NCBI RefSeq assembly: GCF_030295405.1
Contig: NZ_AP027080.1
Coordinates: forward strand, 868,001-932,000
Direction: 5' to 3'
From: Mesoterricola silvestris
Lineage (GTDB): Bacteria > Acidobacteriota > Holophagae > Holophagales > Holophagaceae
Length of the DNA stretch: 64,000 bases
Shown here in pieces: positions 34,738-48,728 of this stretch. The notes under the pieces were generated by a model, which worked only from the letters and a program-made list of their open reading frames with translations, had not been told where the DNA came from and made no database searches. Positions within the stretch are counted from its first letter, which is position 1. Each line of letters begins with the position of its first letter. A program made the translations under genes and the position numbers.

Positions 34738-36759
34738 TCAACGTGCCGGGGCCGCCTCCAACAGAAGGTGCCCCTGGAAGGCCAGGGGGAGCCGGGCGGT
34801 GGGGCCCGTCACCTGGCCCAAGTCGCGGCCGTGCTCATAGTCGGTGATCCGGTACGTCCTGGCTTCCAGGCCGCGCAGTTCCACGGAGCCGTCCCAGGTG
34901 GTCGCGAAGAAGCCGTAGTACAGGGAGTCCCCCTTGCGGATGGCATGGGCTTCGGGGAGGTCGAAGCCGAGGTCGTAGAGGGAGCCCAGGTACTCGCCCC
35001 TGGACAGCATGAGGCGGGAGTAGAGGCCCACCCACTTCTCGAAATCCACGGCCCTGGCGGGAGTGAGATCCGAGGTGCTGCGCTTGGGGGCCAGGGCCGG
35101 CAGCACGAACTGGGAGCCCACCACGCCGCCCACGGCCAGGGTGGACGCGAAATCGGAGGCGTGGTCGCTGAGTTCCACGTGGTCGCCGAAGTAGGCGACG
35201 CCGTCGCCCATGAGGGCCTTCAGGACTTTGCCCTTGGTGCGCACCTGGTAGGAGTCGTGGGGGTCCGAGGCCACGGCCATGTTGTAAGCGGGCATGGTGT
35301 GGAAGGCGTACGACGTGCCGCAGGGGCAGAACTCCACCAGGGCGTCGGGCTTCAGGGCCCGGGCGGTGTCGGCGATCATTTGGATGTAGGCGGGCAGGGC
35401 CCGGGGGGCGTCGTCGGGGCTGGCGTGGTGGTGGGCGGGGTTGTGGCAGGGGGGGACGCCGTTGAGGTACTGGCCGTCCAGCTTCAGGCCGTCGAAGCCC
35501 CATTCGCCCACCAGCTTCTTCACCAGGGCGCGGGTCTGTTCGATGACGGCGGGGTCGGCGGGGCAGAGGTAGAAGGTGGGCCACCAGGAGATCTTCCGGC
35601 GGGAGCCGTCCGGGTTCAGCAGGGCTTCGCCGGGGTGCTCGCGCATGAGCGCGCTGCCCCGCTGGCCCATGAGGGGCGCCCACCACACCTGGGCCCGGAA
35701 GCCGTCGGCGTGGATCCGGTCCACGATCTTCTTCATGTCGGCGTCGCCGCCGGGGAACTTCTTCGGGTCCAGGAGCCAGTCGGCGTAGTTGTCCTGCCAG
35801 CCGTCATCCACGGTGACCCACTTGAAGCCCAGGCGCTTGGCGGTGGGCAGCGTGCCGTAGATCTGGGCGGGAGTCATGGCGCGGCCGTAGCCCCAGGCGC
35901 ACCACATGGGCTCGAAGGCGCTGTCCGGCGCCTGGGCCATGGTGAGGCCCTGGAGGCCCATGAGGCGGCGGTACGACACGAGGGTGTCGAAGCAGTCCCC
36001 GCGGTGCACCGAAACGAAGGTGCGGGGTCCGCGCAGGGTCGCTCCGGGCGCCAGGGATCCGGCCCGGTCCAGGCGGATGCCCACCTGGACCCGCCCGTCC
36101 CGGCCCATGGCCACGGGCAGGGACACCGCCTCGGGGGCGGTGCCCAGGTGGCCGACGCCCAGGCCCACCCGGCGGTTCCACACGTCCACCACGGGGGTGC
36201 CGCCCCCGTAGTCCGGGGCGTTCATGCCCAGGAAGTTCCGCTGGCGGAAGCCGGGGCGCAGGGGCAGGATCCAGTTGGGGCGGCTGGCGTAGGAGCCGCA
36301 CTGATAGGACCACCACGCCGGGGCGGGCCCGGCGGCGTCCAGGGTGTAGGCGTTGCGGATCCAGCCCCGGTGGGCCAGGGGGGTGGCGCCGCCGTTGGCG
36401 TAGTCCACGTCGAAGAAGGCCAGGGCGGGCCAGGCGGGATACACGGTGACCGCGATGGTGGTGCGGAGGGGACCGGAGGCGCCCTCTAGCACCAGGCGTT
36501 CGCCCTTCCCGAAGACGTCGGCCACGGGTTCGGTGCGGCTGGAGACCAGGTGGAAGGCGGTGCGGATTCCGGCGAGGCCCTGGGCGGCGGTGAAGGGCCC
36601 CAGGGGCGTCTCCCGGTCCCCGTCCCGGGCGATGATCCGGCTGCGGAGCTGGCCGTCGAATTCCACCCGAAGGCGCGGGGTCTGGATCCGCGCGGGGGCC
36701 TGGGCGAACGCGGCGGCCGCGGCGAGGAGGGCGATGGGGAGGATGCGGGAGAACGCCAC
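34738..36759 (-). CDS. Secreted GH36-like alpha-galactosidase/galactosaminidase A
   Basis: This is a 673-residue protein with a signal peptide (MAFSRILPIALLAAAAAFAQA). The GH-D clan barrel is seen in KWVTVDDGWQDNYADW, the nucleophile region GFDGLKLDGQYLNG, a CHNPAHHH loop, and the likely acid/base region YFGDHVELSD. It should hydrolyse alpha-linked galactose or N-acetylgalactosamine in the periplasm or outside. It begins with a GTG one base after the amidohydrolase stop and is the last gene of the long operon. It is a paralogue of the 37819 gene, sharing the nucleophile, CHNP and GDHVELS blocks. Confidence 0.82.
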   Translation of the reverse strand: MAFSRILPIALLAAAAAFAQAPARIQTPRLRVEFDGQLRSRIIARDGDRETPLGPFTAAQGLAGIRTAFHLVSSRTEPVADVFGKGERLVLEGASGPLRTTIAVTVYPAWPALAFFDVDYANGGATPLAHRGWIRNAYTLDAAGPAPAWWSYQCGSYASRPNWILPLRPGFRQRNFLGMNAPDYGGGTPVVDVWNRRVGLGVGHLGTAPEAVSLPVAMGRDGRVQVGIRLDRAGSLAPGATLRGPRTFVSVHRGDCFDTLVSYRRLMGLQGLTMAQAPDSAFEPMWCAWGYGRAMTPAQIYGTLPTAKRLGFKWVTVDDGWQDNYADWLLDPKKFPGGDADMKKIVDRIHADGFRAQVWWAPLMGQRGSALMREHPGEALLNPDGSRRKISWWPTFYLCPADPAVIEQTRALVKKLVGEWGFDGLKLDGQYLNGVPPCHNPAHHHASPDDAPRALPAYIQMIADTARALKPDALVEFCPCGTSYAFHTMPAYNMAVASDPHDSYQVRTKGKVLKALMGDGVAYFGDHVELSDHASDFASTLAVGGVVGSQFVLPALAPKRSTSDLTPARAVDFEKWVGLYSRLMLSRGEYLGSLYDLGFDLPEAHAIRKGDSLYYGFFATTWDGSVELRGLEARTYRITDYEHGRDLGQVTGPTARLPLAFQGHLLLEAAPAR

Positions 36760-36760
36760 G

Positions 36761-37822
36761 TCAGGGCCTTTCCACGCGCTTCATGAGGGCCAGGGCGTTG
36801 TCCCGGTACAGCTTCCGGAGGATGCCGGCGTCCAGTCCCAGGCCGTACAGGGGCCAGTGGTAGCCGAACTGGTCCACCTCGTAGAAGTGCTCGTCCTGGG
36901 TTTCCAGGATGCGGAAGGTGATGCCGTACATCCCGGCGTCCATGCCCATGTCGGTGCCGTACAGCAGGCGGTCCTGGTACTTCGCGATGAATTTCGCGGT
37001 GGCCCGGGGCACGGGGGAGGTCTCGGCGTAGCGGGCGCTGATGTCGGCGTAGAGGTTGGGGTGGCGGTCCAGCATGGACCCCAGGAGGGCCAGGTCGCTG
37101 CTGCAGTTGGCGAAGTGGCAGGCGATGAAGGTGGTCCGGGGGTGGCGCGCCGCGGCCCGGTCCAGGGTGGCCACCACGGCGTCGTGGCGGAGGATGGAGG
37201 GCGAATCGGCGATCTTCCAGGTGAAGGCGTTCATGAGGCCGTCGTTGGTGCGGTCCGCGGGCTCGTACATCCACTGGTCCTCCCCTACGTGGATGTTGAA
37301 GGGCAGGCCCAGGTCGGCGCAGTCCTCCAGGATGGGGTCCATGCGGGGATCGTCCAGGTGCATGCCGCCCTTGTTCCCGGCGAGGCCGCCGCCCTTGTCC
37401 GTGATCTCGCCCACGCCCTTGGCTCCGGCCCGGTGGCACCGCCGCAGTTCGGCCACGGCGGCCGCGGCGAAGCCGGGCTGGTCGAAGCCGGAGAGGTCGA
37501 GGCCGCACCAGAGCTGGAAGTGGCGGGGGAATTTCCCGTAGCGCTTCACGGCCTCGTCGAAGCCCTTGCCCGGTTCGGTGACCAGCACCACGGTGCGCTC
37601 GATGCCGCACCGGTCCATGGTGGCGGCCCATTCCGCGGCCTGGGCGTCGGTTTCCGCGTAGGCGTGGGAATGCATGTCCACCACCGGGAACATGGCCTTT
37701 TCCACCCGGGTGACGGGCACCTTGTAGATGGAGCGGGGGCGGTAGTCCTTGAGGAGGAGCTGGTCGGGGGCCTGGGCCGCCAGGGTGGAGGCCAGGGCGA
37801 GGAGGAGGGCGGTGGGGTTCAA
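36761..37822 (-). CDS. Secreted amidohydrolase (TIM-barrel, amidohydrolase_2 type)
   Basis: This is a 353-residue metal-dependent hydrolase with a signal peptide (ALLLALASTLAAQA). Ligands are visible: HxH in VVDMHSHAY, Glu in GVGEITDKGG, His in FNIHVGED, His in FIACHFANCS, and Asp in LLYGTDMGMD. The TTG start overlaps the upstream glycosidase stop. Family members act as lactonases, decarboxylases or amidases. Sandwiched between two GH36-like enzymes in a galactosamine-type operon, it may act on the sugar itself, for instance as a deacetylase or lactonase. This is inference only, because no classical AgaA-type deacetylase is in the operon. Confidence 0.8.
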   Translation of the reverse strand: MNPTALLLALASTLAAQAPDQLLLKDYRPRSIYKVPVTRVEKAMFPVVDMHSHAYAETDAQAAEWAATMDRCGIERTVVLVTEPGKGFDEAVKRYGKFPRHFQLWCGLDLSGFDQPGFAAAAVAELRRCHRAGAKGVGEITDKGGGLAGNKGGMHLDDPRMDPILEDCADLGLPFNIHVGEDQWMYEPADRTNDGLMNAFTWKIADSPSILRHDAVVATLDRAAARHPRTTFIACHFANCSSDLALLGSMLDRHPNLYADISARYAETSPVPRATAKFIAKYQDRLLYGTDMGMDAGMYGITFRILETQDEHFYEVDQFGYHWPLYGLGLDAGILRKLYRDNALALMKRVERP

Positions 37823-39846
37823 GGGGCGACCTCGAGGAGAAGGTGATCGGTGAAGGCGACGGGAAGGCGGGGCGCCCTTCCGGCCGGGACGGTGACGGGG
37901 CCCAGGTCCCGCCCTTCGGCGTAGTCCCGCACCCGGTAGGTGCCGGGCTGCAGGCCGCGAAGCTCCACGTCCCCCTTCCAGGGCCCCGGAGCGTAGAAGG
38001 CGTAGTGCAGGATGCCGTCCTTGGCCACGGCGTAGCCTTCGGGCGCGTCCACGCCCAGGGTGTAGAGGTTCAGGAAGGTTCCGCTGGAAAGGCGCTTGCG
38101 GTCGTAGAGGGCGAGCCATTTCCGCCACACCTCCTCCCGGGCGGGGGTGAGGTCCACGGGGCCCGAGGCGGGCACGGCGCCCGTGGGGGGCCACACGAAC
38201 TTGGTGCTGACCACGCCCCCGGCGCCCAGGGTGGACGCGAAGTCCTCCCCGGTCTCGAACCAGTCGGGGTGCCCTTCCCGGGTCATGGCGCTGAGCTCCA
38301 CGTGGTCGCCGGACACGGCGGCCCCGGGCCCCAGGAGGGCCTTGAGGATCTTGATGCGCCGGCGCACCTGCGCGGCGCCCACGGGGTCGGCGGTGACGCC
38401 CTGGTCCATCCACGGGAGCCAGTCCGCGGAGGGCAGGGTGCCGCAGGGGCAGATCTGGATCACGGCCTCCGGCTTCAGGGCGTGGGTGGCCTCCAGGATC
38501 TCGCGGTAGAGGCCGGCAACGGCCCGGGTTGATTCGTCCGGGGAGGCGTGGCGGTGCAGGGGGTTGTGGCAGGGGGGGATGGCGAAGATGTTGTCCATCT
38601 TGAAGCCGTCGAAGCCGTAGTCGCGGATGAACCGCACGGCCATGTCCCGGAAATACGCCCGCACGTCGGGCAGGGCCGGATCCAGGACGGCCAGGGACCG
38701 CACCATGGTGGCGGGGCGGCCCGAGGGGTCCAGCACGAGCCATTCGGGGTGGTCGCGCACCACGTCGGACTGGCGGTAGCGGTGGGACTCGCCCTTGCCG
38801 TTGGCGATCTCGGCGCCGATGGGCAGCCACCACAATTGCACCTTCACGCCGGCCGCGTGGAACCGGTCCACCATGGCCTTCAGGGCGTCGCCGGGGAAGG
38901 TGTCCGGGCGGGGCTTCCAGTCGCCGTAGGCGTCGAACCAGCGGTCGTCGAGGGTGGCCCAGGCCAGGCCCAGGTCCTTGAGCTTGGGCAGGACCCCCAG
39001 CATCCGCGCGGGGGTGATGTCGAAGCCGTAGCCCCAGCTGCACCAGGTGGCTTCGAAGGCGGAGGCGGGGGGAACCCGGGGGCGCCAGCCCTGGGCGCCC
39101 ATGAGGGTGGACCAGAGGCGCAGGGGTTCGTAGAAGTCCCCGCCGTGCACGGAGAGGTACCCGCGCGGGGAGGTCCAGGTTTCCCGGGGGGCCAGGGTCC
39201 GCGCGGGGAAGGTGAGGGAGGCTTCCACGGCGCCGTCGGCGGCCACGTCCACGGGCAGGGCGCAGGCCGCGGTGGACAGGGCGCCCAGGGACGCGCAGGT
39301 GGCGGCGTTCCAGAAGGCGGTGACGGGGATGCCCCCGCCCAGGCCATCGGGGTTCATGGCGCCCATGCGGTTGGGACGGGCGCCGGGGCGGGGCTCCAGC
39401 ACCTCGTCCTCGCCCCAGCCCACGCTGGCCCCCTGGAAGCTGTTCAGGCGGCCCGGGGCCAGGTTCACGCCGAGGACCCGCACCTCGCCCAGGGGCAGGG
39501 GCCGGTCCTGGGGGTTGGTGACGCGGATGGAGGCGAAGAGGGCCTCGGGGGTCTCCGGGCGCACCTCCAGCACCAGGGTGCGCACCAGGGGGCCCCGGTC
39601 CAGGAAGGGCACCTCGGCCCGGCGGGGGCCGGCCTTGGCCCGGCGCAGATCCAGCACCGGAGCCCCGTCCCGGGCGCCGGGCAGGTCCAGGGTGAGGCGG
39701 CGGCCCCCCTGGAGCCGCGCCGCCAGGACCCGGCCCGAGGCCAGCACCTGGAATTCCGCGCGGGGGGTGGCCAGCTTGAGGGGCGCGGCCCAGGCCGCGG
39801 CGCAGGCCAGGACCAGGAGGCTGGGCCCGAAGGCCGGGATGCGCAT
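37819..39846 (-). CDS. Secreted GH36-like alpha-galactosidase/galactosaminidase B
   Basis: This is a 675-residue secreted glycosidase. The signal peptide is PSLLVLACAAAWAA. An N-terminal beta-sandwich is followed by a barrel with LAWATLDDRWFDAYGDW, nucleophile block GFDGFKMDNIFAIP, CHNPLHRHASPDE, and GDHVELSAMT. GGAGGAACCC before the ATG at 39846 fixes the start; the open frame upstream is spurious. It shares all key blocks with the 34738 gene but has diverged widely, suggesting different linkage or sugar preference (for example Gal versus GalNAc). Confidence 0.82.
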   Translation of the reverse strand: MRIPAFGPSLLVLACAAAWAAPLKLATPRAEFQVLASGRVLAARLQGGRRLTLDLPGARDGAPVLDLRRAKAGPRRAEVPFLDRGPLVRTLVLEVRPETPEALFASIRVTNPQDRPLPLGEVRVLGVNLAPGRLNSFQGASVGWGEDEVLEPRPGARPNRMGAMNPDGLGGGIPVTAFWNAATCASLGALSTAACALPVDVAADGAVEASLTFPARTLAPRETWTSPRGYLSVHGGDFYEPLRLWSTLMGAQGWRPRVPPASAFEATWCSWGYGFDITPARMLGVLPKLKDLGLAWATLDDRWFDAYGDWKPRPDTFPGDALKAMVDRFHAAGVKVQLWWLPIGAEIANGKGESHRYRQSDVVRDHPEWLVLDPSGRPATMVRSLAVLDPALPDVRAYFRDMAVRFIRDYGFDGFKMDNIFAIPPCHNPLHRHASPDESTRAVAGLYREILEATHALKPEAVIQICPCGTLPSADWLPWMDQGVTADPVGAAQVRRRIKILKALLGPGAAVSGDHVELSAMTREGHPDWFETGEDFASTLGAGGVVSTKFVWPPTGAVPASGPVDLTPAREEVWRKWLALYDRKRLSSGTFLNLYTLGVDAPEGYAVAKDGILHYAFYAPGPWKGDVELRGLQPGTYRVRDYAEGRDLGPVTVPAGRAPRLPVAFTDHLLLEVAP

Positions 39847-39860
39847 GGGTTCCTCCGGAA

Positions 39861-40748
39861 TCAGGCCTGGGCCGGCGTTTCGTCCTCCATGCCCATGAGC
39901 AGGGTGGCCAGGACGGCCGCGACCATGCCCAGGGCGTGGGGGGCCAGGGGCAGGGTGCGGAACAGGATCAGGGAAAGGATGATGGTCACCACCGGACCCC
40001 CGGCGTTGACCAGGGGGGAGACGATGATGGCCCGGCCGTAGCGGAAGGCGTACACCAGGAGCAGGGCGCCCACGGCGTTGAGCACCTGGATGAGGGCCGC
40101 CATCCAAGGGCCGCGGAAGCCCCAGGTGATGGGACGGCTGAAATCGGTCATGAACCAGGCCGCGGGGATCAGCAGCAGGCCCGTGAGGGTCATGTAGAAG
40201 AAGATGCTCTCGGCGCGCATGGACTTGTTGCCGTGGGAGATGACGAAGCCCTGCAGGCCCCAGGCCAGGAACACCACCAGGGCCGGGCCCACCCACAGGA
40301 GGCCGTGGACGGCGCCGGAGCCGGGGGGGGTGTAGGCCAGCAGGATGCCCGCCACCAGGGCCAGGGCGATGCCCGCCCAGCCCCGGGCCGAGGCCCGCTC
40401 CCGGGAGACCGCCAGGGCCAGGAGGATGGTCACCAGGGGCGACAGGGCGATGAAGGGGAACACCAGGTACGCGGGGGCGATGCGCAGCACCAGGAACAGC
40501 ACCAGCTGCCCCCCGGCGCCCAGGAACCCCGCGAGGCATCCGTAGAGCACCGACCTGCGGTCCGTCTCCACCTGCCAGCCCACCCGGGCCAGGGCCACCA
40601 TGCAGGGGGGGATCATGGTGATGGCCCAGACGATGTAGCCCAGGGTCGCGGGGAAGCCCGCCGCGGCGGGGACGTCGATGAGGGCCCCCCAGAGGCCCCA
40701 GGCCAGGACGGTGATGAGGGTGAACAGGAACCAGGGCTGCTTCAGCAT
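39861..40748 (-). CDS. DMT/EamA-family sugar transporter
   Basis: This is a 295-residue inner-membrane protein with about ten hydrophobic helices. The start MLKQPWFLFTLITVLAWGL matches GRP/EamA-type porters. The ATG overlaps the KbaZ-like gene end by seven bases. In this operon it is the only inner-membrane transporter. It is the likely uptake route for the sugar released by the secreted glycosidases. Confidence 0.8.
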   Translation of the reverse strand: MLKQPWFLFTLITVLAWGLWGALIDVPAAAGFPATLGYIVWAITMIPPCMVALARVGWQVETDRRSVLYGCLAGFLGAGGQLVLFLVLRIAPAYLVFPFIALSPLVTILLALAVSRERASARGWAGIALALVAGILLAYTPPGSGAVHGLLWVGPALVVFLAWGLQGFVISHGNKSMRAESIFFYMTLTGLLLIPAAWFMTDFSRPITWGFRGPWMAALIQVLNAVGALLLVYAFRYGRAIIVSPLVNAGGPVVTIILSLILFRTLPLAPHALGMVAAVLATLLMGMEDETPAQA

Positions 40749-42046
40749 GGGGATCCTTGGGATTCGGCGCGGCAGGCGGCGGCGTAATGCCCCAGCACCC
40801 GGCGCACGGCATGGACGGCCACGGCCCGGCCCGAGGGCGGCAGGAGCCCTTCCCGCACGGCCTCGTAGGCCAGGGGGCGGTACTGGCTGAGGAGGCCCAG
40901 GGGCAGGGGGCCCGCGGTGAGTTCGAACAGCCGCTCCACTTCCGCCACCACCTCGGGATCGGTCCAGTAGTAGCGGGAGCGGTCGCTGAGGCTGAAGCGC
41001 CGGGCGAAGGCCAGTTCGCTCTCCCGGCCGTGGTAGTGGTTCTTCCAGTGGATGGGATTGCGGAGCATGACCGCCTCCAGCACCTCGGCCAGGCGGGGCC
41101 GGAGGCGCGCGGGGTCGAGGCCGTGGAGTTCCAGGGCGATGGCCTCCAGGGAGAAGAGGGCCTCCCGGAAGGCGTAGGTGAGCCAGGGGCCCACCTTCAG
41201 GATGGCGAAGCGGTCCTCCACCAGCTGGCGCAGGGCTTCGGGGGTCTGGTAGTCGGTGGAGTGGGCCTCGTACATCCAGGGCGCCCGGGACGCGATGGCC
41301 GCCACCAGGGGCGCGGCGGCCTCCCGGCGGTAGGCGTGGATCTCGGCCTGGCTGAATTCCACGCCGGGCTGGACCACCAGGGCGATGACCCGGTCCCAGG
41401 CGGAGGCCAGGCCCAGGCGCCCGAAGGCGGCCCGGGTGATGTCGAGGGTCTCCGCCACGTCCCCGGCGGAGGTGGGGCGCACGCCGGGTTCGCCGTCCTG
41501 GGCGCCGCCCGGAGGCGGCACTTCGGTGCCGATGACGTACACCGGGGCCGGGCCTCCTCCGCGCCGGGCGAAGGCCGCCTCGGCCCGGAGGCAGAGGGCC
41601 GCGGCGCGCCGGGCCACGGTTTCGCCGGGAAGGTCGGCGGGGTCGCCGGCGCAGGCCATGCTGGCGTCCAGGTGGATCTTCTGGAACCCGGCGGCCACGT
41701 AGGCTTCCACCAGGTCGCCGGCCTTGGCCAGGGCGGCCTCCGCGGGTTCGGCCCGCCAGGGATTGGGGCCCAGGTGGTCGCCGCCCAGGATGATCCGCCC
41801 GGGGTCGAAGCCGGTATCCCGGGCCAGGTCCCCCACGAAGGCGGCGAAGGCCGCGGGGGTCATGCCGGTGTACCCGCCGAACTGGTCCACCTGGTTGCAG
41901 GTGGCCTCGATGAGCACGGGGGCCCCGTCCGCCGCGCCCTGGTCCAGGGCGGCGCGCAGGACCATGGGATGGGCGGAGCACACCGCGTACACGCCGCGCA
42001 CGCGGCCTTCCCGGCGGTCCCGCCTCAGGCTCAGGAGATCAGGCAT
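40742..42046 (-). CDS. kbaZ: Tagatose-1,6-bisphosphate aldolase, KbaZ/GatZ-type subunit
   Basis: This is a 434-residue non-catalytic subunit of class II D-tagatose-1,6-bisphosphate aldolase. Family blocks are YAVCSAHPMVLRAAL, VLIEATCNQVDQFGGYTGM, ILGGDHLGPNPW, GFQKIHLDASMACAGD and VYVIGTEVPPPGG. It stabilises the catalytic KbaY-type partner encoded just upstream (eight-base overlap). Its presence identifies the pathway as a tagatose-bisphosphate route used for galactosamine, GalNAc or galactitol. Confidence 0.93.
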   Translation of the reverse strand: MPDLLSLRRDRREGRVRGVYAVCSAHPMVLRAALDQGAADGAPVLIEATCNQVDQFGGYTGMTPAAFAAFVGDLARDTGFDPGRIILGGDHLGPNPWRAEPAEAALAKAGDLVEAYVAAGFQKIHLDASMACAGDPADLPGETVARRAAALCLRAEAAFARRGGGPAPVYVIGTEVPPPGGAQDGEPGVRPTSAGDVAETLDITRAAFGRLGLASAWDRVIALVVQPGVEFSQAEIHAYRREAAAPLVAAIASRAPWMYEAHSTDYQTPEALRQLVEDRFAILKVGPWLTYAFREALFSLEAIALELHGLDPARLRPRLAEVLEAVMLRNPIHWKNHYHGRESELAFARRFSLSDRSRYYWTDPEVVAEVERLFELTAGPLPLGLLSQYRPLAYEAVREGLLPPSGRAVAVHAVRRVLGHYAAACRAESQGSPC

Positions 42047-42875
42047 GGCCGCCTTCCGTCATGAGCATCCGCAGCTTCTGGGCGATGAGTTCCTTCACGT
42101 CGCGGATGGCGGGGGGGAAGATGGCGCGGATATCGATGCCGCTGGAGGCCAGCAGCTCGCGCTTGATGCCGCGCACGAAGGCGTCCTTGGTCTCGGTGGC
42201 CACGTTGACCTTGCAGATGCCCCGGGCCACCACGGCCCGGATGGAGGCCTCGCCCACGCCGGAGCCGCCGTGGAGCACCAGGGGGACGCTCGTGAGCCTG
42301 CGGATCGCCTCCAGCCGCTCCAGGTCCAGGCGGGGTTCGGCCTTGTAGAAGCCGTGGGCGGTGCCGATGGAGACGGCCAGGGCGTCCACGCCGGTGGCCT
42401 CCACGAAGCGCGCGGCCTGGACGGGATCGGTGAGGCCGGCGGGATCGGCCTCCTGGCCCAGCTTGGCCACGAAGCCCAGTTCGGCCTCCACGTTGGCCCC
42501 GGTGGCCCGGGCCAGGGCCACGGCCCGGCGGGTGGCCTCGATGTTCCGGTCCAGGTCCTGCTCACTGGCGTCGATCATCACGGAATCGAAGCCGGCGTCG
42601 ATGCAGTCCGCCACCAGGTCCAGGCCGAGGGCATGGTCCAGGTGGATCCAGCCCTCCACGCCGTGGTGGCGCAGCCCGGCCCGGCCCATGGCCAGGGCCA
42701 CGGGCAGGCCCAGGTAGTCGATGGAGCTCCGGGTCATCTGGAGGATGATGGGCTGCCCCAGATCGGACGCGGCTTCCAGCACCCCTCGCAGGGTCTCGGC
42801 GTTGTAGAAGTTGGTGGCGAGGAGGGCCGACCTGCGGTCCCTCATCTCCAGGAGTTTCTCCTTGAGGCTAGGCAT
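42039..42875 (-). CDS. kbaY: Tagatose-1,6-bisphosphate aldolase, catalytic (KbaY/GatY type)
   Basis: This is a 278-residue class II zinc aldolase. The zinc ligands and catalytic blocks are in GWIHLDHALGLDL, DSVMIDASEQDLDRNI, VEAELGFVAK, GFYKAEPRLD and VLHGGSGVGEASI. It cleaves tagatose 1,6-bisphosphate to dihydroxyacetone phosphate and glyceraldehyde 3-phosphate. A fructose-bisphosphate aldolase is the alternative, but the adjacent KbaZ-type gene argues for tagatose. Confidence 0.9.
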   Translation of the reverse strand: MPSLKEKLLEMRDRRSALLATNFYNAETLRGVLEAASDLGQPIILQMTRSSIDYLGLPVALAMGRAGLRHHGVEGWIHLDHALGLDLVADCIDAGFDSVMIDASEQDLDRNIEATRRAVALARATGANVEAELGFVAKLGQEADPAGLTDPVQAARFVEATGVDALAVSIGTAHGFYKAEPRLDLERLEAIRRLTSVPLVLHGGSGVGEASIRAVVARGICKVNVATETKDAFVRGIKRELLASSGIDIRAIFPPAIRDVKELIAQKLRMLMTEGGHA

Positions 42876-43809
42876 GGAAGCGCTCCCTGGCGATGGCCAT
42901 GACCGCGGCCAGGTCCTGGAAGGCGCCGGTGCCTCCGGCGGCGGTGGTGTTCACGGCGCCCATGAGGCACCCGAAGCGCAGGCACGCCTCCACGGGTTCT
43001 CCGGCGATGAACCGGGAGATGAACCCGGCGTCGAAGCTGTCCCCGGCGCCGATGGCGTCCACCACGCGGTCGTTGAGGAAGGAGGGCTGGAAGAAGGTGC
43101 CCTCGCCGGTGGCCGCCGTGGCGCCCGCGCAGCCCTGCTTCACCACGATGGTGCGGGCATGGGGCCGCAGGGCGTCCAGGGCTTCGGGGACGGTGGCCCT
43201 GCGGGTGAGGTGGAGGATCTCCTGCTCGTTGGGGAGGAAGACGTCCACGGAGGGGAGGATGGCCGGCAGGTCCAGGTCCCAGGCCTCGGCGGGGTCCCAC
43301 TGGGGATCGAAGGAGGTGGTCAGCCCGCAGGCCTTGGCCCGGCGGAAAAGCGCCGCGATGTCCGGGAACATCCCGGGCTGCAGGAAGGCCGAGGCGAAGT
43401 GCAGGTGCCCGGCGGTGGCCAGGCGCTCCTTGGAGGCGTCGGCCAGGGTGAGGTGGGCCATGGCCCCCATGTGGGTGGCCATGGCCCGGTCCTCGCCCCG
43501 GTTCAGGACGACGGTGGCGCCGGTGGCGTGGGAGGGGGTGCGCAGGATCGGGCCGGTGTCCACGCCCTTGGCCCGCAGGCGCTCCACGGCCAGGTCCCCG
43601 AAGAGGTCCTCGCCCACCAGGCCCAGGAAGGCCACCCGCGCGCCCAGGGTGCTGAGGTTGCTGGCGAAGATGGCGGAGGAGCTGCCCAGGGTCAGCGTCA
43701 TGGCCTCGGCCAGGACCTCCTTGCCGACCTCCGGCATGCGGGCCAGGCCGTTGAGGATCAGGTCGACGTTCAGCTCGCCCACGACGAGCACGTCCGTGGT
43801 CCGGGTCAT
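42868..43809 (-). CDS. PfkB-family sugar kinase, probable tagatose-6-phosphate kinase
   Basis: This is a 313-residue ribokinase/PfkB-fold kinase. Seen are the N-terminal GELNVDLILNG and LTLGSSSAIFASNLSTLG, and the catalytic DAIGAGDSFDAGF near the C-terminus. Between an AgaS-like isomerase and the aldolase subunits, it most likely phosphorylates tagatose 6-phosphate. Phosphorylating a free sugar is also possible. It overlaps both neighbours (four and eight bases). Confidence 0.85.
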   Translation of the reverse strand: MTRTTDVLVVGELNVDLILNGLARMPEVGKEVLAEAMTLTLGSSSAIFASNLSTLGARVAFLGLVGEDLFGDLAVERLRAKGVDTGPILRTPSHATGATVVLNRGEDRAMATHMGAMAHLTLADASKERLATAGHLHFASAFLQPGMFPDIAALFRRAKACGLTTSFDPQWDPAEAWDLDLPAILPSVDVFLPNEQEILHLTRRATVPEALDALRPHARTIVVKQGCAGATAATGEGTFFQPSFLNDRVVDAIGAGDSFDAGFISRFIAGEPVEACLRFGCLMGAVNTTAAGGTGAFQDLAAVMAIARERFHA

Positions 43810-44981
43810 GGGCGGGTCCTTTCCGGGGCGGGGTAGATCGTCACGCCCCGCACCACCCGGGAGATGCTCCCGGCCGGGGAGGGCGAATCGGGGCGCAGCC
43901 CCAGCGCGATGGCCTTGTGGACGCCCAGGATCTGGGCGGCCAGGACGGCGCAGATGGCCCGCTCCTCGTCGTCCATGGGGCCCGGAAGGGGGATGGTGGC
44001 CTCCATGGGAGAAGGGGCGCGGAGGCCCTCGCCCACGCCCAGGTGGAACAGCCCCTGGACGCCGCCCCGGATCTCGCCCACCAGATCCTCCTCGTAGGCC
44101 CTGAGGCCGGCCCGCCCCGAAAAGAGGAACACGAGGAGGGTCGACTCATTTATGGCAGCCTTGGGTCCGTGGCGGAACCCCAGGAAGGAGTCGTAGGCGC
44201 AGATCACCGAACCGTTGCTCAGCTCCTGCAGCTTGAGGTGGCTTTCCCGGGCCGCGGCCTTCAGGGCGCCGGCGCCCAGGAAGATCGCCCGGGTGAAGGG
44301 CAGGGAGCCCAGTTCCCGGAACCGGTCGCCCTGGGTGGCCAGGATCTCCGCGGCGGCGGCCGCGAGGCGCTCCACCCGGGCCTTGGCGGCGTCCAGGCAC
44401 TCCAGGTCCGCCAGGAGCAGGCCCGCCAGGGCCATGCCCGTGAAGCTCCCGGTCATGGCCAGGCCCTGGTCGTCGGATTCCGGGGGCAGGACGAAGACCG
44501 CCCGGGGATTGGGGGTGGGATGCCGGGCCAGCTCCCCCTCGGGGTTGCAGGTGATGACGAGGTGCCTCAGGTCCCCCAGGCGCGCGTCCGCGCAATCCAC
44601 GGCGGCCACGCTCTCGGGGCTGTTGCCGGAACGGGCGAAGGAGATGAGCAGGGTGGGCACGTCCCGGGGGAAGGCCTCCTCGGGGTTGGTGACGATGTCG
44701 GTGGTGGCCACGGCGCGCACGGGGCGGCCGGTGCGCAGGGCGTAGCGCCCCTGGAGCAGCTCGCCGATGTACGCGGAGGACCCGGCCCCGGTGAGGACGA
44801 TCTCCCGGTCCGGGCCCAGGGCGGCCGGGGCCAGGAAGGGGAGCAGGTTGTGCCGCTCCCCCCGGAGGGCGGTCCAGATCCCGCGCCAGAGGGCGGGCTG
44901 CCCGAGGATCTCGGGGATGGTGTGGACGGCGCCCAGCGTGGCCAGGGCCGCCGTGTCGAATTCGGAAAAAACTGCGCTCAT
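43806..44981 (-). CDS. agaS: SIS-domain AgaS-like galactosamine-6-phosphate deaminase/isomerase
   Basis: This is a 391-residue protein with two SIS domains. Seen are IVLTGAGSSAYIGELLQG, LLISFARSGNSPESVAAV and ELSNGSVICAYDSFLGFRHGPKA. AgaS enzymes convert galactosamine 6-phosphate to tagatose 6-phosphate plus ammonia. The operon context (kinase, tagatose aldolase, AgaR-like repressor) supports this over a generic GlmS-like isomerase. No dedicated GalNAc kinase or AgaA deacetylase is next to it. Confidence 0.88.
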   Translation of the reverse strand: MSAVFSEFDTAALATLGAVHTIPEILGQPALWRGIWTALRGERHNLLPFLAPAALGPDREIVLTGAGSSAYIGELLQGRYALRTGRPVRAVATTDIVTNPEEAFPRDVPTLLISFARSGNSPESVAAVDCADARLGDLRHLVITCNPEGELARHPTPNPRAVFVLPPESDDQGLAMTGSFTGMALAGLLLADLECLDAAKARVERLAAAAAEILATQGDRFRELGSLPFTRAIFLGAGALKAAARESHLKLQELSNGSVICAYDSFLGFRHGPKAAINESTLLVFLFSGRAGLRAYEEDLVGEIRGGVQGLFHLGVGEGLRAPSPMEATIPLPGPMDDEERAICAVLAAQILGVHKAIALGLRPDSPSPAGSISRVVRGVTIYPAPERTRP

Positions 44982-45008: not shown

Positions 45009-45590
45009 TCAGAACCGGTAGGTGGCCATGAGGCTGAAGTACGCGGGACGGCTCGGATTGGTCGTGGCGAGGTCGATGTTGGGATTGGACCGCCACTCGG
45101 TGAACGTGTAGAACAGGGTGGCGGACCAGTCCTTCGTGACGTCGTAGCCCAGGCCCAGGCGCCATCCGGCCTTCAGGTGGTTGTCTGCGGGGTAGAGGCT
45201 GGGATCTCCCCCCCGCTGGGTGCCCTTCCACACGTTGACGGAGGGCCCGGTGTGGAGGCTCAGGGGGACGCCCTCCCAGGGGCGGAAGACCAGGTCCGCG
45301 CCCAGGCGGGTGCCGCTCAGTTCGAAGGTGGGCCGCTCATCGGTGCCGGTGGCGGAGGGCATGTGGGCGTAGCCGGCGTACACCCGGATCTCGGGCCCGA
45401 AGCCCGGGGGGTTGAAGCGAGCCCCCAGTTCGAGGGTGTAGCCGCCGGTGGTCTTCCCAGTGAGGTCGACGGTGTTGCCCTGGTTCACGACGAGTCCGCC
45501 GGAAACCTGGTACCGGGAATCGCCGGCCACGGCGGGGGCGGCCGCGGCCAGGGCGAGGGCGCAGGAGAGGAGCGTGGGGAGGGTTTTCAT
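45009..45590 (-). CDS. Small outer-membrane beta-barrel protein
   Basis: This is a 193-residue protein with a signal peptide (LSCALALAAAAPAVAG), alternating amphipathic strands and a C-terminal aromatic residue (FSLMATYRF), as in outer-membrane barrels. It is too small for a TonB receptor and is probably an eight-stranded barrel. It lies between the TonB receptor and the sugar enzymes and shares their strand, so a glycan-binding or porin role is likely. Confidence 0.72.
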   Translation of the reverse strand: MKTLPTLLSCALALAAAAPAVAGDSRYQVSGGLVVNQGNTVDLTGKTTGGYTLELGARFNPPGFGPEIRVYAGYAHMPSATGTDERPTFELSGTRLGADLVFRPWEGVPLSLHTGPSVNVWKGTQRGGDPSLYPADNHLKAGWRLGLGYDVTKDWSATLFYTFTEWRSNPNIDLATTNPSRPAYFSLMATYRF

Positions 45591-45602: not shown

Positions 45603-48600
45603 TCAGAACCGGATGCCGGTGTCGAAGGTGATGGACCGGCCGGCGACCCTTCCGGTGCCGACCGTCGAGAGGTCATCCGCGGCGCGCCACCCGCTGCCGG
45701 TGTGCTGCGCGGGCTGGCCCACCGTGTCGATGAGCCCGGTGCCTTCCAGGGCGTAGGGCCCCCGGCGCTTGGCGTTGAAGACGTTGGCGAAGGTCACGTC
45801 GAAAAATCCCTTCACCGACCCCCACACCGTGATCTCCATGTTGTACTTCAGGCTGACGGTGGTCAGGTCCATGTTGGTCATGCGGCTGCCGTCGGCGGTG
45901 AGGGCCAGGGAATTGGGGAGGCCGCCGGTGTTCTGCACGTTGCCGTCGTTGTAGCCCGCCAGGGTGGGCGCGGGGATGTTGACGGTGCTCCAGCGCCCTT
46001 CGGGCTTGCCGCTGGTGTACGAGCCCTGGAGGGTGACGTTGGATTTCACCTTGCCCTGGCTGAGGTTGTAGGACAGGTAGAGGTTGAAGATGTGCTCCGG
46101 GGTGCGGAGGGTCATGGGGTTGTACTGGTCCCGGGCGTACAGCGTGTCGTAGTAGTCCCGGAAGTTCACCAGCTGGCTCGTGGTGCGGTCGGGGTTGTCG
46201 ATGGTGGAGCGGGTGTTGGCCATCATGCGGGCGTAGGTGTAGTTGCCGTACACGGTCATGCGGGAATTCACCGGCATCATCCATTCCAGCTCCAGGCTCT
46301 TGTAGGTGCGCCTGGAATCGGGATCGTTCCGCAGGATCCGCCTGAAGTTGGGGGATCCGGAAGCGTCGGTGTACACCGAACCCGGGAAGAAGTCGAAGAG
46401 GTCCGACCAGTACTTGTAGATCCCCGTGGCCCGCCAGTAGCCGCCCGAGGCGTAGGCGCGGCGGAAGCCGAGCGTGAATTCGTGGGAGACGGGGTTCTTC
46501 CAGTTTGGGTCGATGACGAAGGTGTCGCCGGCGTAGGTGCGGGTGTAGGCGGTGTAGTTGGCCGGATCCTGGAGCTGGGCCAGGCTCACGTAGTGGGGGG
46601 TGCTGGAACCTTGGCTCCAGTAGGAGACGGTCTGGTTCCCGTACCGGCCGTGGGCCGCGGGCAGGAAGAGGGAGCCCGGGGAGCTGGACTGGAATTCGCC
46701 GTAGGACACGTTGATCAACCGGGACTGGTCGCCGTACACGTCCCACTTGTACTCGAACCGCGGGTTGAAGCGCCCGTAGGATACGAAGGTGCGGGTCTCG
46801 TCGCTCACCTTGAAGGCGTCGTGGCGCAGGCCGACCATGATGCTGTGGCGGCTGTTGATCGTCCAGAGGTCGTTGAGGTAGATGGAGGTGGTCTGCTTGC
46901 GCATGTCGCCGCCCTCGGCCCCGGTGCGGCTCACCCACAGGGGCACCAGGCCGAGGCCTCCGGGCCAGTGGTTGTCCGATCCCGGGGCGCCGAGGCCCGG
47001 GTTCACGAGGCCGTCGTTGAGGACCGGGGTGGCGGGGTAGGTGGGATCCAGGTCCTGGAGGGTGGCGGTGGCGGCGTTGTACACCAGGAAGGCGCCGGTG
47101 GAGGGATTCTGGCCGGGCACCACGTACTGGTCCTTGGCGGCCCCCACCTGGATGCCCCACTTGAACTTCTCCATGTCCATGCCCAGGTCCACCAGGTGGG
47201 TGGAGCCGTTGTGGGAGAATTCCCGGGACCAGTTCACGAGGACGGAATCGTTCAGGATGGTGTCGCCCCGGTCCGCGTTGTAGCCGTTGATGTTGTAGGC
47301 GGTGCCCCCGGAGGCGTAGCCGTCCAGGAGGCTGGTGACGGGGTTGGAGCCGTCGGCGTTGTGGGCGCCGGGGATGAAGGTGGTCCAGATGGCGGCCTGG
47401 CCCGGGCTGTAGGGGTGGGGCCAGGAGCGGTAGGTGTGGCCCACCCGGGCCTCCAGCACGCCGGCCTCGCCCAGGATGCCCTTGTAGCCGAGGTTCCACA
47501 GGTGGTGGTGGTAGTCGTCCGTGGAGGAGCCCACGGAGTCGATGCGGCCGAAGCGGGGGATCCCCCAGTAGGCCTGGCTGTCGTTCTGGGTGTAGTTCCA
47601 CTCCAGGCTGTGGTTGTCGTTGATCTGGGCGAAGACGACGAACTGGTGGAACTTGGAGACGTCGGACAGGGTGTCCAGGCTGCCCAGGCCGTAGGTGTTG
47701 GCGGGCACCACGCCCGCGCCGGGAACGAAGGTGAAGGTGGACTGGCTGGGCAGCCCGTTGAGGACGGTGTTGCCCACCTGGGAGGTGTAGGAGCGGGTGG
47801 GGGTCTGCTGCGTGCCGTAGGCGAAGGTGATGTGGTCCTTCCAGATGGGGCCGCGCAGGGAGAGCTCGTAGGTGCGGTTGGAGTAGTCGTCGTTGGGCCA
47901 GGCGGGATCCCCGGGGGACCCGTCCCGGCGGGCGTAGGACGTGCCGTTGTCCTGCCAGATGTTCTTGCGGTACTTGACCCGGGCGGTGCCCGTGAAGGTG
48001 TTGCTGCCCCGGGTGGTGACGATGGAGACGAGGCCGCCGTCGGTGTTGCCGTAGCGCGCGTTGAGGGGCGACTGGATGACGGACATGCTTTCCACCATGT
48101 CCATGAGGGTGGTCACCTCGTTGAGGTAGCCGCCGCCCTCCTCGGTGATGTTCAGGCCGTTCTGGATGACCTTGGTGCTGTGCTGGATGCCGCCCCGGAT
48201 GGACAGGGCGTCGTCGCCGTAGCCGCCGACGTTGGGGTCCAGGGTGCCGGTGATGCCCGGGGAGAGCTGGATGATGGCGTCCATCTTGAAGTCGGCCAGC
48301 TCGTTGAGGTTGTCCATGGAGAAGGTGGAGGAGGTCACGGTGGTGGTCTTGTCCACCTGGGCGGCCAGGTCCACCACTTCCACCGTGGCCCCCTGCACCA
48401 CCACGGGGGTGAGGATGACGTCCTGGCGCGCCGTCTGGCCGGGCACCACCTGGAACTGGCCCTTGATGGTCATGTAGCCGGGGGCGGTGACGGTGATGGT
48501 GTACTTGCCGTTGGGCAGGAGCCCGATGCGGTACTGGCCGTTGTCGTTGGCGGCGGCGGTGCGCTCCCCCAGGAGGGTCGGCGAGGCCAGGCGCACCAGG

Positions 48601-48728
48601 GCGCCGGGGATGGGCTTGCCGGCCCGGGTCAGGATCTGCCCCGAGGCGACGCCGGTGGTCTCCTGGCCGAAAAGCTGGCTCGCGGCCAGGATCATCGCGA
48701 TGGGGGTGAACATTCTTCGGTGCAGCAT
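45603..48728 (-). CDS. TonB-dependent receptor, Oar-like, with carboxypeptidase regulatory domain
   Basis: This is a 1,041-residue outer-membrane receptor. A signal peptide (PIAMILAASQLFGQ) precedes a carboxypeptidase-regulatory-like repeat (ASGQILTRAGKPIPGALVRL...GKYTITVTAPGY). The plug domain follows (DALSIRGGIQHSTKVIQNGLN), then a long barrel ending in ITFDTGIRF. Such Oar-like receptors are frequent in acidobacteria and import or sense large ligands. As the first big gene of the operon it should take up the glycan processed by the GH36-like enzymes. Confidence 0.93.
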   Translation of the reverse strand: MLHRRMFTPIAMILAASQLFGQETTGVASGQILTRAGKPIPGALVRLASPTLLGERTAAANDNGQYRIGLLPNGKYTITVTAPGYMTIKGQFQVVPGQTARQDVILTPVVVQGATVEVVDLAAQVDKTTTVTSSTFSMDNLNELADFKMDAIIQLSPGITGTLDPNVGGYGDDALSIRGGIQHSTKVIQNGLNITEEGGGYLNEVTTLMDMVESMSVIQSPLNARYGNTDGGLVSIVTTRGSNTFTGTARVKYRKNIWQDNGTSYARRDGSPGDPAWPNDDYSNRTYELSLRGPIWKDHITFAYGTQQTPTRSYTSQVGNTVLNGLPSQSTFTFVPGAGVVPANTYGLGSLDTLSDVSKFHQFVVFAQINDNHSLEWNYTQNDSQAYWGIPRFGRIDSVGSSTDDYHHHLWNLGYKGILGEAGVLEARVGHTYRSWPHPYSPGQAAIWTTFIPGAHNADGSNPVTSLLDGYASGGTAYNINGYNADRGDTILNDSVLVNWSREFSHNGSTHLVDLGMDMEKFKWGIQVGAAKDQYVVPGQNPSTGAFLVYNAATATLQDLDPTYPATPVLNDGLVNPGLGAPGSDNHWPGGLGLVPLWVSRTGAEGGDMRKQTTSIYLNDLWTINSRHSIMVGLRHDAFKVSDETRTFVSYGRFNPRFEYKWDVYGDQSRLINVSYGEFQSSSPGSLFLPAAHGRYGNQTVSYWSQGSSTPHYVSLAQLQDPANYTAYTRTYAGDTFVIDPNWKNPVSHEFTLGFRRAYASGGYWRATGIYKYWSDLFDFFPGSVYTDASGSPNFRRILRNDPDSRRTYKSLELEWMMPVNSRMTVYGNYTYARMMANTRSTIDNPDRTTSQLVNFRDYYDTLYARDQYNPMTLRTPEHIFNLYLSYNLSQGKVKSNVTLQGSYTSGKPEGRWSTVNIPAPTLAGYNDGNVQNTGGLPNSLALTADGSRMTNMDLTTVSLKYNMEITVWGSVKGFFDVTFANVFNAKRRGPYALEGTGLIDTVGQPAQHTGSGWRAADDLSTVGTGRVAGRSITFDTGIRF

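Follow-up and report, generated by a model that had tools for sequence, protein, structure and literature searches.

A secreted amidohydrolase encoded between two GH36 genes is a candidate GalNAc de-N-acetylase in an AgaA-free galactosamine operon of Mesoterricola silvestris

In the 64,000-nucleotide stretch of M. silvestris DNA analyzed here (the window), an amidohydrolase gene, AMH (36761..37822, minus strand, TTG start), encodes a secreted PF04909 protein of 353 aa that is a candidate periplasmic de-N-acetylase of GalNAc or alpha-GalNAc glycosides. On balance, we favor the view that AMH is a secreted GalNAc de-N-acetylase from a family not known for this activity and that it would replace AgaA by acting before import. 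In the proposed pathway, the periplasmic, metal-dependent AMH would take the N-acetyl group off GalNAc, most likely the terminal alpha-linked GalNAc of an imported oligosaccharide, and the two flanking GH36 enzymes, GHa and GHb, would next free galactosamine (GalN). GalN would be imported by a putative EamA permease and phosphorylated, after which AgaS would convert GalN-6-P to tagatose-6-P and NH3, and PfkB and KbaYZ would carry the product on to triose phosphates. A cytoplasmic AgaA would be unnecessary in this scheme, because the acetyl group would be lost before import. We infer here the deacetylase reaction, its timing before GH36 cleavage, what the permease and the sugar kinase do, and the natural polymer substrate. 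With somewhat less assurance, we propose that the whole Amidohydro_2 clade of AMH consists of previously unrecognized secreted de-N-acetylases of GalNAc (or N-acetylhexosamine), with no sequence relationship to CE9 or the deacetylase known from F. plautii, and that together with GH36 and AgaS/PfkB/KbaYZ they may form a widespread environmental AgaA-free pathway that deacetylates, cuts, and imports GalN.

AMH is part of a ten-gene minus-strand operon with the order TonB receptor-OMP-AgaS-PfkB-KbaY-KbaZ-EamA-GHb-AMH-GHa. The TonB-dependent receptor (45603..48728), assigned by Pfam and with 73% identity in the Holophagaceae genome G217, is a candidate glycan importer, and is followed by a small outer-membrane beta-barrel protein (45009..45590; PF13505) and an AgaS-family galactosamine-6-phosphate deaminase/isomerase (43806..44981; TIGR02815, 345 bits). 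Next are a PfkB-family kinase (42868..43809), which is a candidate tagatose-6-phosphate (or galactosamine) kinase, and a KbaY-like class II (tagatose/fructose bisphosphate) aldolase (42039..42875), both assigned by Pfam and NCBIfam, and a KbaZ/GatZ-like subunit of tagatose-1,6-bisphosphate aldolase (40742..42046; PF08013, 554 bits; TIGR02810, 548.5 bits of 568.8). An EamA permease of the DMT superfamily (39861..40748; Pfam), a candidate importer of the freed sugar, precedes GHb (37819..39846), AMH, and GHa (34738..36759), the last with a GTG start. AMH, GHa, and GHb are each predicted to carry an N-terminal signal peptide. The original prediction of a secreted amidohydrolase between two GH36 genes with signal peptides was borne out by the PF04909 and PF02065 matches and by the gene junctions: the TTG start of AMH sits within the stop codon of GHb (TTGA, a 4-nt overlap), and its stop codon is separated from the GHa start by 1 nt.

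Both flanking enzymes match PF02065 (Melibiase) above the cut-off, with 56.5 and 35.0 bits for the pair. A sequence search of the PDB with GHa and GHb gave 8x1b ("alpha-galactosidase") as the top match and, nearly equal in score, 9awt, the F. plautii "A type blood alpha-D-galactosamine galactosaminidase" (FpGalNase), with E values of about 1e-65 to 1e-67. In the cryo-EM study of FpGalNase, the mutants D463A, C513A, and D532A were nearly inactive (PMC11762096). According to the alignment and the motif positions, these residues correspond to D428, C480, and D499 in GHa and to D418, C468, and D487 in GHb; Y464 of FpGalNase is conserved in neither. GHa and GHb thus group by sequence with the enzyme that cuts alpha-GalN after deacetylation and would presumably share its specificity for the free amine. 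The scheme of deacetylation followed by GH36 cleavage is already known from F. plautii (PMC10154618; PMC11762096), and the FpGalNase match together with the retained key residues makes the comparison with it well grounded, as had been supposed when these genes were linked to the two-step alpha-GalNAc route.

The resemblance to the F. plautii pair FpGalNAcDeAc and FpGalNase thus covers the GH36 type, the key residues, and the position of a gene for a secreted candidate deacetylase beside GH36. However, AMH belongs to the Amidohydro_2 TIM barrels, and the solved structure of the F. plautii GalNAc deacetylase was absent from its sequence, profile, and listed fold matches. Another difference from F. 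plautii is that AMH shares an operon with a TonB receptor and with the genes for the AgaS/KbaYZ route inside the cell.

In the intracellular part of the pathway, AgaS matched the AgaS-type structures 3odp, 3c3j, and 3i0z with E values of 1e-64 to 1e-71 (4e-66 for 3c3j), and KbaY, KbaZ, and PfkB, as judged from their family matches, fit the route from GalN-6-P through Tag-6-P and Tag-1,6-BP to triose phosphates described in a pathway review (PMC12118421). As in the Aga pathway of Shewanella and E. coli (AgaS, KbaYZ, and AgaP/AgaK or a PTS), AgaS, the aldolase subunits, a kinase, and a permease are present. Unlike that pathway, the window operon has a DMT-type permease rather than a PTS, and the genome lacks AgaA and a ROK kinase. 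This genome is complete in one contig of 4.99 Mb, and a search of all of it with the NagA/AgaA model TIGR00221 found no match at E ≤ 0.001, AMH included, which confirms the predicted absence of AgaA; no ROK kinase was found in it either. Likewise, neither NagA/AgaA nor a ROK kinase was found in G217, which also bears AMH. A related locus, L124, has two PfkB genes. With galactosaminidase-type GH36 and AgaS present and AgaA missing, the gap in the window pathway falls exactly at deacetylation.

The distribution of NagA-like proteins qualifies the idea that AMH stands in for AgaA. A complementary pattern was seen in G096 (100% complete), the one Acidobacteriota genome that has this GH36 and an AgaS/PfkB/KbaZ locus (L077) but no AMH-like protein; it instead encodes a complete NagA (328 bits) along with two ROK kinases. 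This is a single case, and the NagA is on a different contig from the GH36/AgaS locus. Among the genomes with AMH and GH36, many of which are incomplete MAGs, 10 had no NagA at E ≤ 1e-20 (G000, G217, G002, G003, G004, G007, G009, G712, G538, and G426). The other 12, about half, encode a NagA-like protein, which was not seen inside any of the operons examined.

AMH itself matched PF04909 (Amidohydro_2) with 81.6 bits against a gathering cut-off of 26.4, its relatives scored 66-72 bits, and it is the sole PF04909 match in the genome. It had no match to any NCBIfam model and no significant match in the PDB by either sequence or profile search. It follows the PF04909 pattern of HxH on strand 1, His on strands 5 and 6, and Asp on strand 8, and H51, H53, H178, H236, and D291 are invariant in 33 of 33 rows; all 32 clade members in the alignment retain the full metal ligand set of these five residues plus E139. 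This clade-specific Glu lies on strand 4 within a GVGE(I/L)xDKG motif and is also present in most of the sister proteins with 40-45% identity; farther paralogs have GLKIFKxLGL-like stretches at this position. In NagA-type deacetylases a strand-4 Glu binds the metal, so E139 would fit a NagA-like site in AMH. The structural model of AMH is an amidohydrolase-superfamily TIM barrel (pLDDT 87). The nearest solved folds are 3irs (of unknown function), 2,3-dihydroxybenzoate decarboxylases, LigW2, and LigJ, and E. coli NagA (1ymy) ranks 16th among the best 50 fold matches listed; the matches have a TM of about 0.5 and identities of 12-17%.

AMH thus has the superfamily fold of the GalNAc-6-phosphate and GlcNAc-6-phosphate deacetylases AgaA and NagA (CE9), and the same net step, the removal of acetate from GalNAc, is proposed for it. 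It differs from them in lacking a TIGR00221 match and in belonging to another Pfam family, of which we know no characterized member that is a sugar deacetylase. N-terminal hydrophobic signals are present in all aligned members of the clade (one row is masked there), several with a lipobox-like Cys. Being exported, AMH should not encounter a phosphorylated sugar, as AgaA and NagA do. AMH as a cytoplasmic replacement of AgaA was ruled out on the basis of the export signals in all clade members.

The fold matches also bear on the possibility that AMH is a non-hydrolytic member of the superfamily, of the decarboxylase or hydratase type, acting for example on an acidic amino sugar. The nearest folds do include 2,3-dihydroxybenzoate and 5-carboxyvanillate decarboxylases and LigJ, but at the low TM and identities given above. 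To our knowledge, a strand-4 Glu is not general in the decarboxylase/hydratase type, which sets the clade-specific Glu of AMH against this reading, and the operon indicates an unmodified galactosamine as the product. We therefore regard a non-hydrolytic function as highly improbable. The original prediction had named a sugar lactonase as the main alternative to a deacetylase. PF04909 does contain lactonases, namely the L-fucono- and L-rhamnono-lactonases of COG3618, among them reportedly the L-fucono-1,5-lactonase of Hobbs et al. 2013 (cited in PMC5583593). However, no orthology of AMH to a lactonase was found: unlike the COG3618 enzymes, it is exported and matches no curated model, and none of the best 50 fold matches listed, among which are decarboxylases, LigJ, uronate isomerase, and NagA, is named as a lactonase. 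Moreover, no recognized sugar dehydrogenase or aldonate dehydratase is encoded in the operon, and the AgaS/tagatose bisphosphate route is closed to an aldonate. A COG3618-type lactonase is therefore very unlikely.

A scan of the genome collection with AMH yielded 39 loci. A Holophagaceae MAG (L002) has an AMH with 97% identity, and G217 (L078) has the same operon as the window. In the Bacteroidota loci L021, L022, L025, and L035 (the last from the culturable Prolixibacter bellariivorans), the genes run DeoR-type regulator, AgaS, KbaZ-like, PfkB, KbaY, AMH, and GH36, with a gene of SusC size next in three of the four; L013 has AgaS-PfkB-KbaY-AMH-GH36 and is missing the KbaZ-like gene. No AgaA was found within these five operons. 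AMH also adjoins GH36 in L003, L005, and L008, KbaY in L023, and EamA in L029, and L004 has an AgaS-like gene, EamA, and AMH side by side; in G168, AMH is apart from the AgaS-GH36 locus. In a tree of 52 proteins, all AMH rows form one clade (100/100), apart from the paralogs with <46% identity. The rows linked to GH36 and AgaS represent Acidobacteriota, Bacteroidota, Calditrichota, Caldisericota, KSB1, and a bin labeled Firmicutes, and within the clade Planctomycetota and Verrucomicrobiota each make up a group of their own.

In a survey of 396 Acidobacteriota genomes, AMH (E ≤ 1e-100) was present in 8, galactosaminidase-type GH36 (E ≤ 1e-40) in 10, and both in 6 (Fisher p = 1.1e-9; p = 3e-8 minus the window's own genome). 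Three of the four other GH36 genomes (G116, G176, and G233) encode a sister protein with 40-45% identity to AMH; with the sisters included, AMH-like proteins occur in 9/10 GH36 genomes versus 13/396 overall (p = 1e-14). Among 345 Bacteroidota genomes drawn evenly, GH36 was found in 6, AMH in 8, and both in 5 (p = 8e-9), with the two genes side by side in G002, G712, and G538 and separated by 12-21 kb in G633 and G588. The Fisher values disregard shared descent; the matches nonetheless span several phyla. Across 378 genomes from the phylum of G009, no galactosaminidase-type GH36 was found besides that of G009. Because the arrangement is conserved across phyla and the Fisher tests agree, the link between AMH and GH36 is more than chance. 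AMH as a chance neighbor was ruled out by the co-occurrence in independent genome draws.

The clade also has a second context. Of 35 genomes reached via AMH loci, 12 have GH36 and exactly those 12 have AgaS; the remaining 23, which have neither, belong to Planctomycetota, Verrucomicrobiota, one Vicinamibacterales MAG, and one unplaced bacterium. In the Planctomycetota (L006, L007, L010, L024, L026, L028, and others), the AMH neighbors are beta-helix proteins, an SGSH_C sulfatase, GH97, a Gfo/Idh/MocA oxidoreductase, or MFS transporters. Two Acidobacteriota loci from one genus, L087 (G337) and L094 (G379), have an AMH with 63% identity and no galactosaminidase-type GH36. The Planctomycetota and Verrucomicrobiota genomes indicate that the substrate there is perhaps broader or different. 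Such breadth would fit an enzyme that deacetylates free GalNAc, or N-acetylhexosamines generally, in the periplasm after release by a glycosidase: it would account for the genomes lacking GH36, the same gap in the pathway would be filled, and the SGSH_C sulfatase neighbor in L007 hints at amino-sugar substrates. However, the residues of the free-amine enzyme retained in GHa and GHb point to deacetylation before cleavage, and we consider action on the released sugar quite unlikely. The proposal of a deacetylase from an unrelated family stands in part: AMH is exported, has no sequence match to known deacetylases, and travels with GH36 and AgaS across phyla, whereas deacetylation itself is deduced and the clade also extends to genomes with neither GH36 nor AgaS.

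Some related loci encode other candidate deacetylases. The c24 family (L005:8196-10556, L008:17003-19348, and L121) carries the motifs DAD, HSKYH, and MWHDYS, and one copy weakly matched PF01522 (Polysacc_deac_1; E = 0.046). Proteins of 508-509 aa with a DD...HxxxH pattern occur in L115:6687-8216 and L117:894-2420; G439, with two GH36 genes and no AMH, has a 509-aa DD/HxxxH protein preceding one GH36, and its homologue in L117 stands alongside AMH. Neither family had a significant family match, and from their motifs both are possibly NodB-like deacetylases of a polymer. They could deacetylate the polymer extracellularly, leaving AMH another or later role. AMH would then act on the same glycan but on a different group, such as another N-acyl substituent, a uronic acid amide, or a modification on a neighboring sugar, and any acetyl group would be removed by another secreted deacetylase. 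The occurrence of the AMH clade without GH36 and AgaS in Planctomycetota and Verrucomicrobiota also favors this explanation. However, no such candidate deacetylase was found in the window operon or in the operons of L013, L021, L022, L025, and L035, and the gap left by GH36 and AgaS in the absence of AgaA coincides with deacetylation itself. We therefore consider action on a different group rather unlikely, and retain GalNAc de-N-acetylation as the preferred function of AMH.

A further candidate deacetylase, a PIG-L (LmbE-like) protein (L119:16128-16985), is encoded about 4 kb from GH36 in G633, where AMH is 12 kb away. Several other genes recur in these loci. A family of about 505 aa, with a Tat signal where scanned and no other Pfam domain, is found beside galactosaminidase-type GH36 (L005:4519-6090, L008:13283-14824, L078:6011-7591, L079:14181-16874, L117:5692-7206, and L118:5043-6557). 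DUF4874-DUF4832 proteins, recurrent in the GH36/AgaS loci L013, L021, L023, L118, L120, and L121, may be part of the same glycan pathway. In two Bacteroidota loci (L117:7240-9471 and L118:6623-8830), AMH and GH36 are followed by genes for an FAD amine oxidase and a cytochrome c-like protein, the L118 pair being assigned by position and resemblance; this arrangement suggests that the amino sugar undergoes oxidation.

We found no report in the open-access literature that pairs a deacetylase of the amidohydrolase type with a galactosaminidase of GH36. Within the literature searched, the enzyme family, its link to an AgaS pathway lacking AgaA, and its spread over multiple phyla appear to be new. 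A genome without agaA is taken to indicate an organism that can use GalN but not GalNAc (PMC5583593). If AMH deacetylates before import, such genomes are misread by this criterion, and the use of GalNAc would be commoner than annotated. The proposed function, if true, would also provide a new deacetylase family for the pair of enzymes that converts the A antigen, and possibly for alpha-GalNAc biofilm polysaccharides, and an enzyme clade that is present in at least six phyla and has so far no annotation would gain a function.
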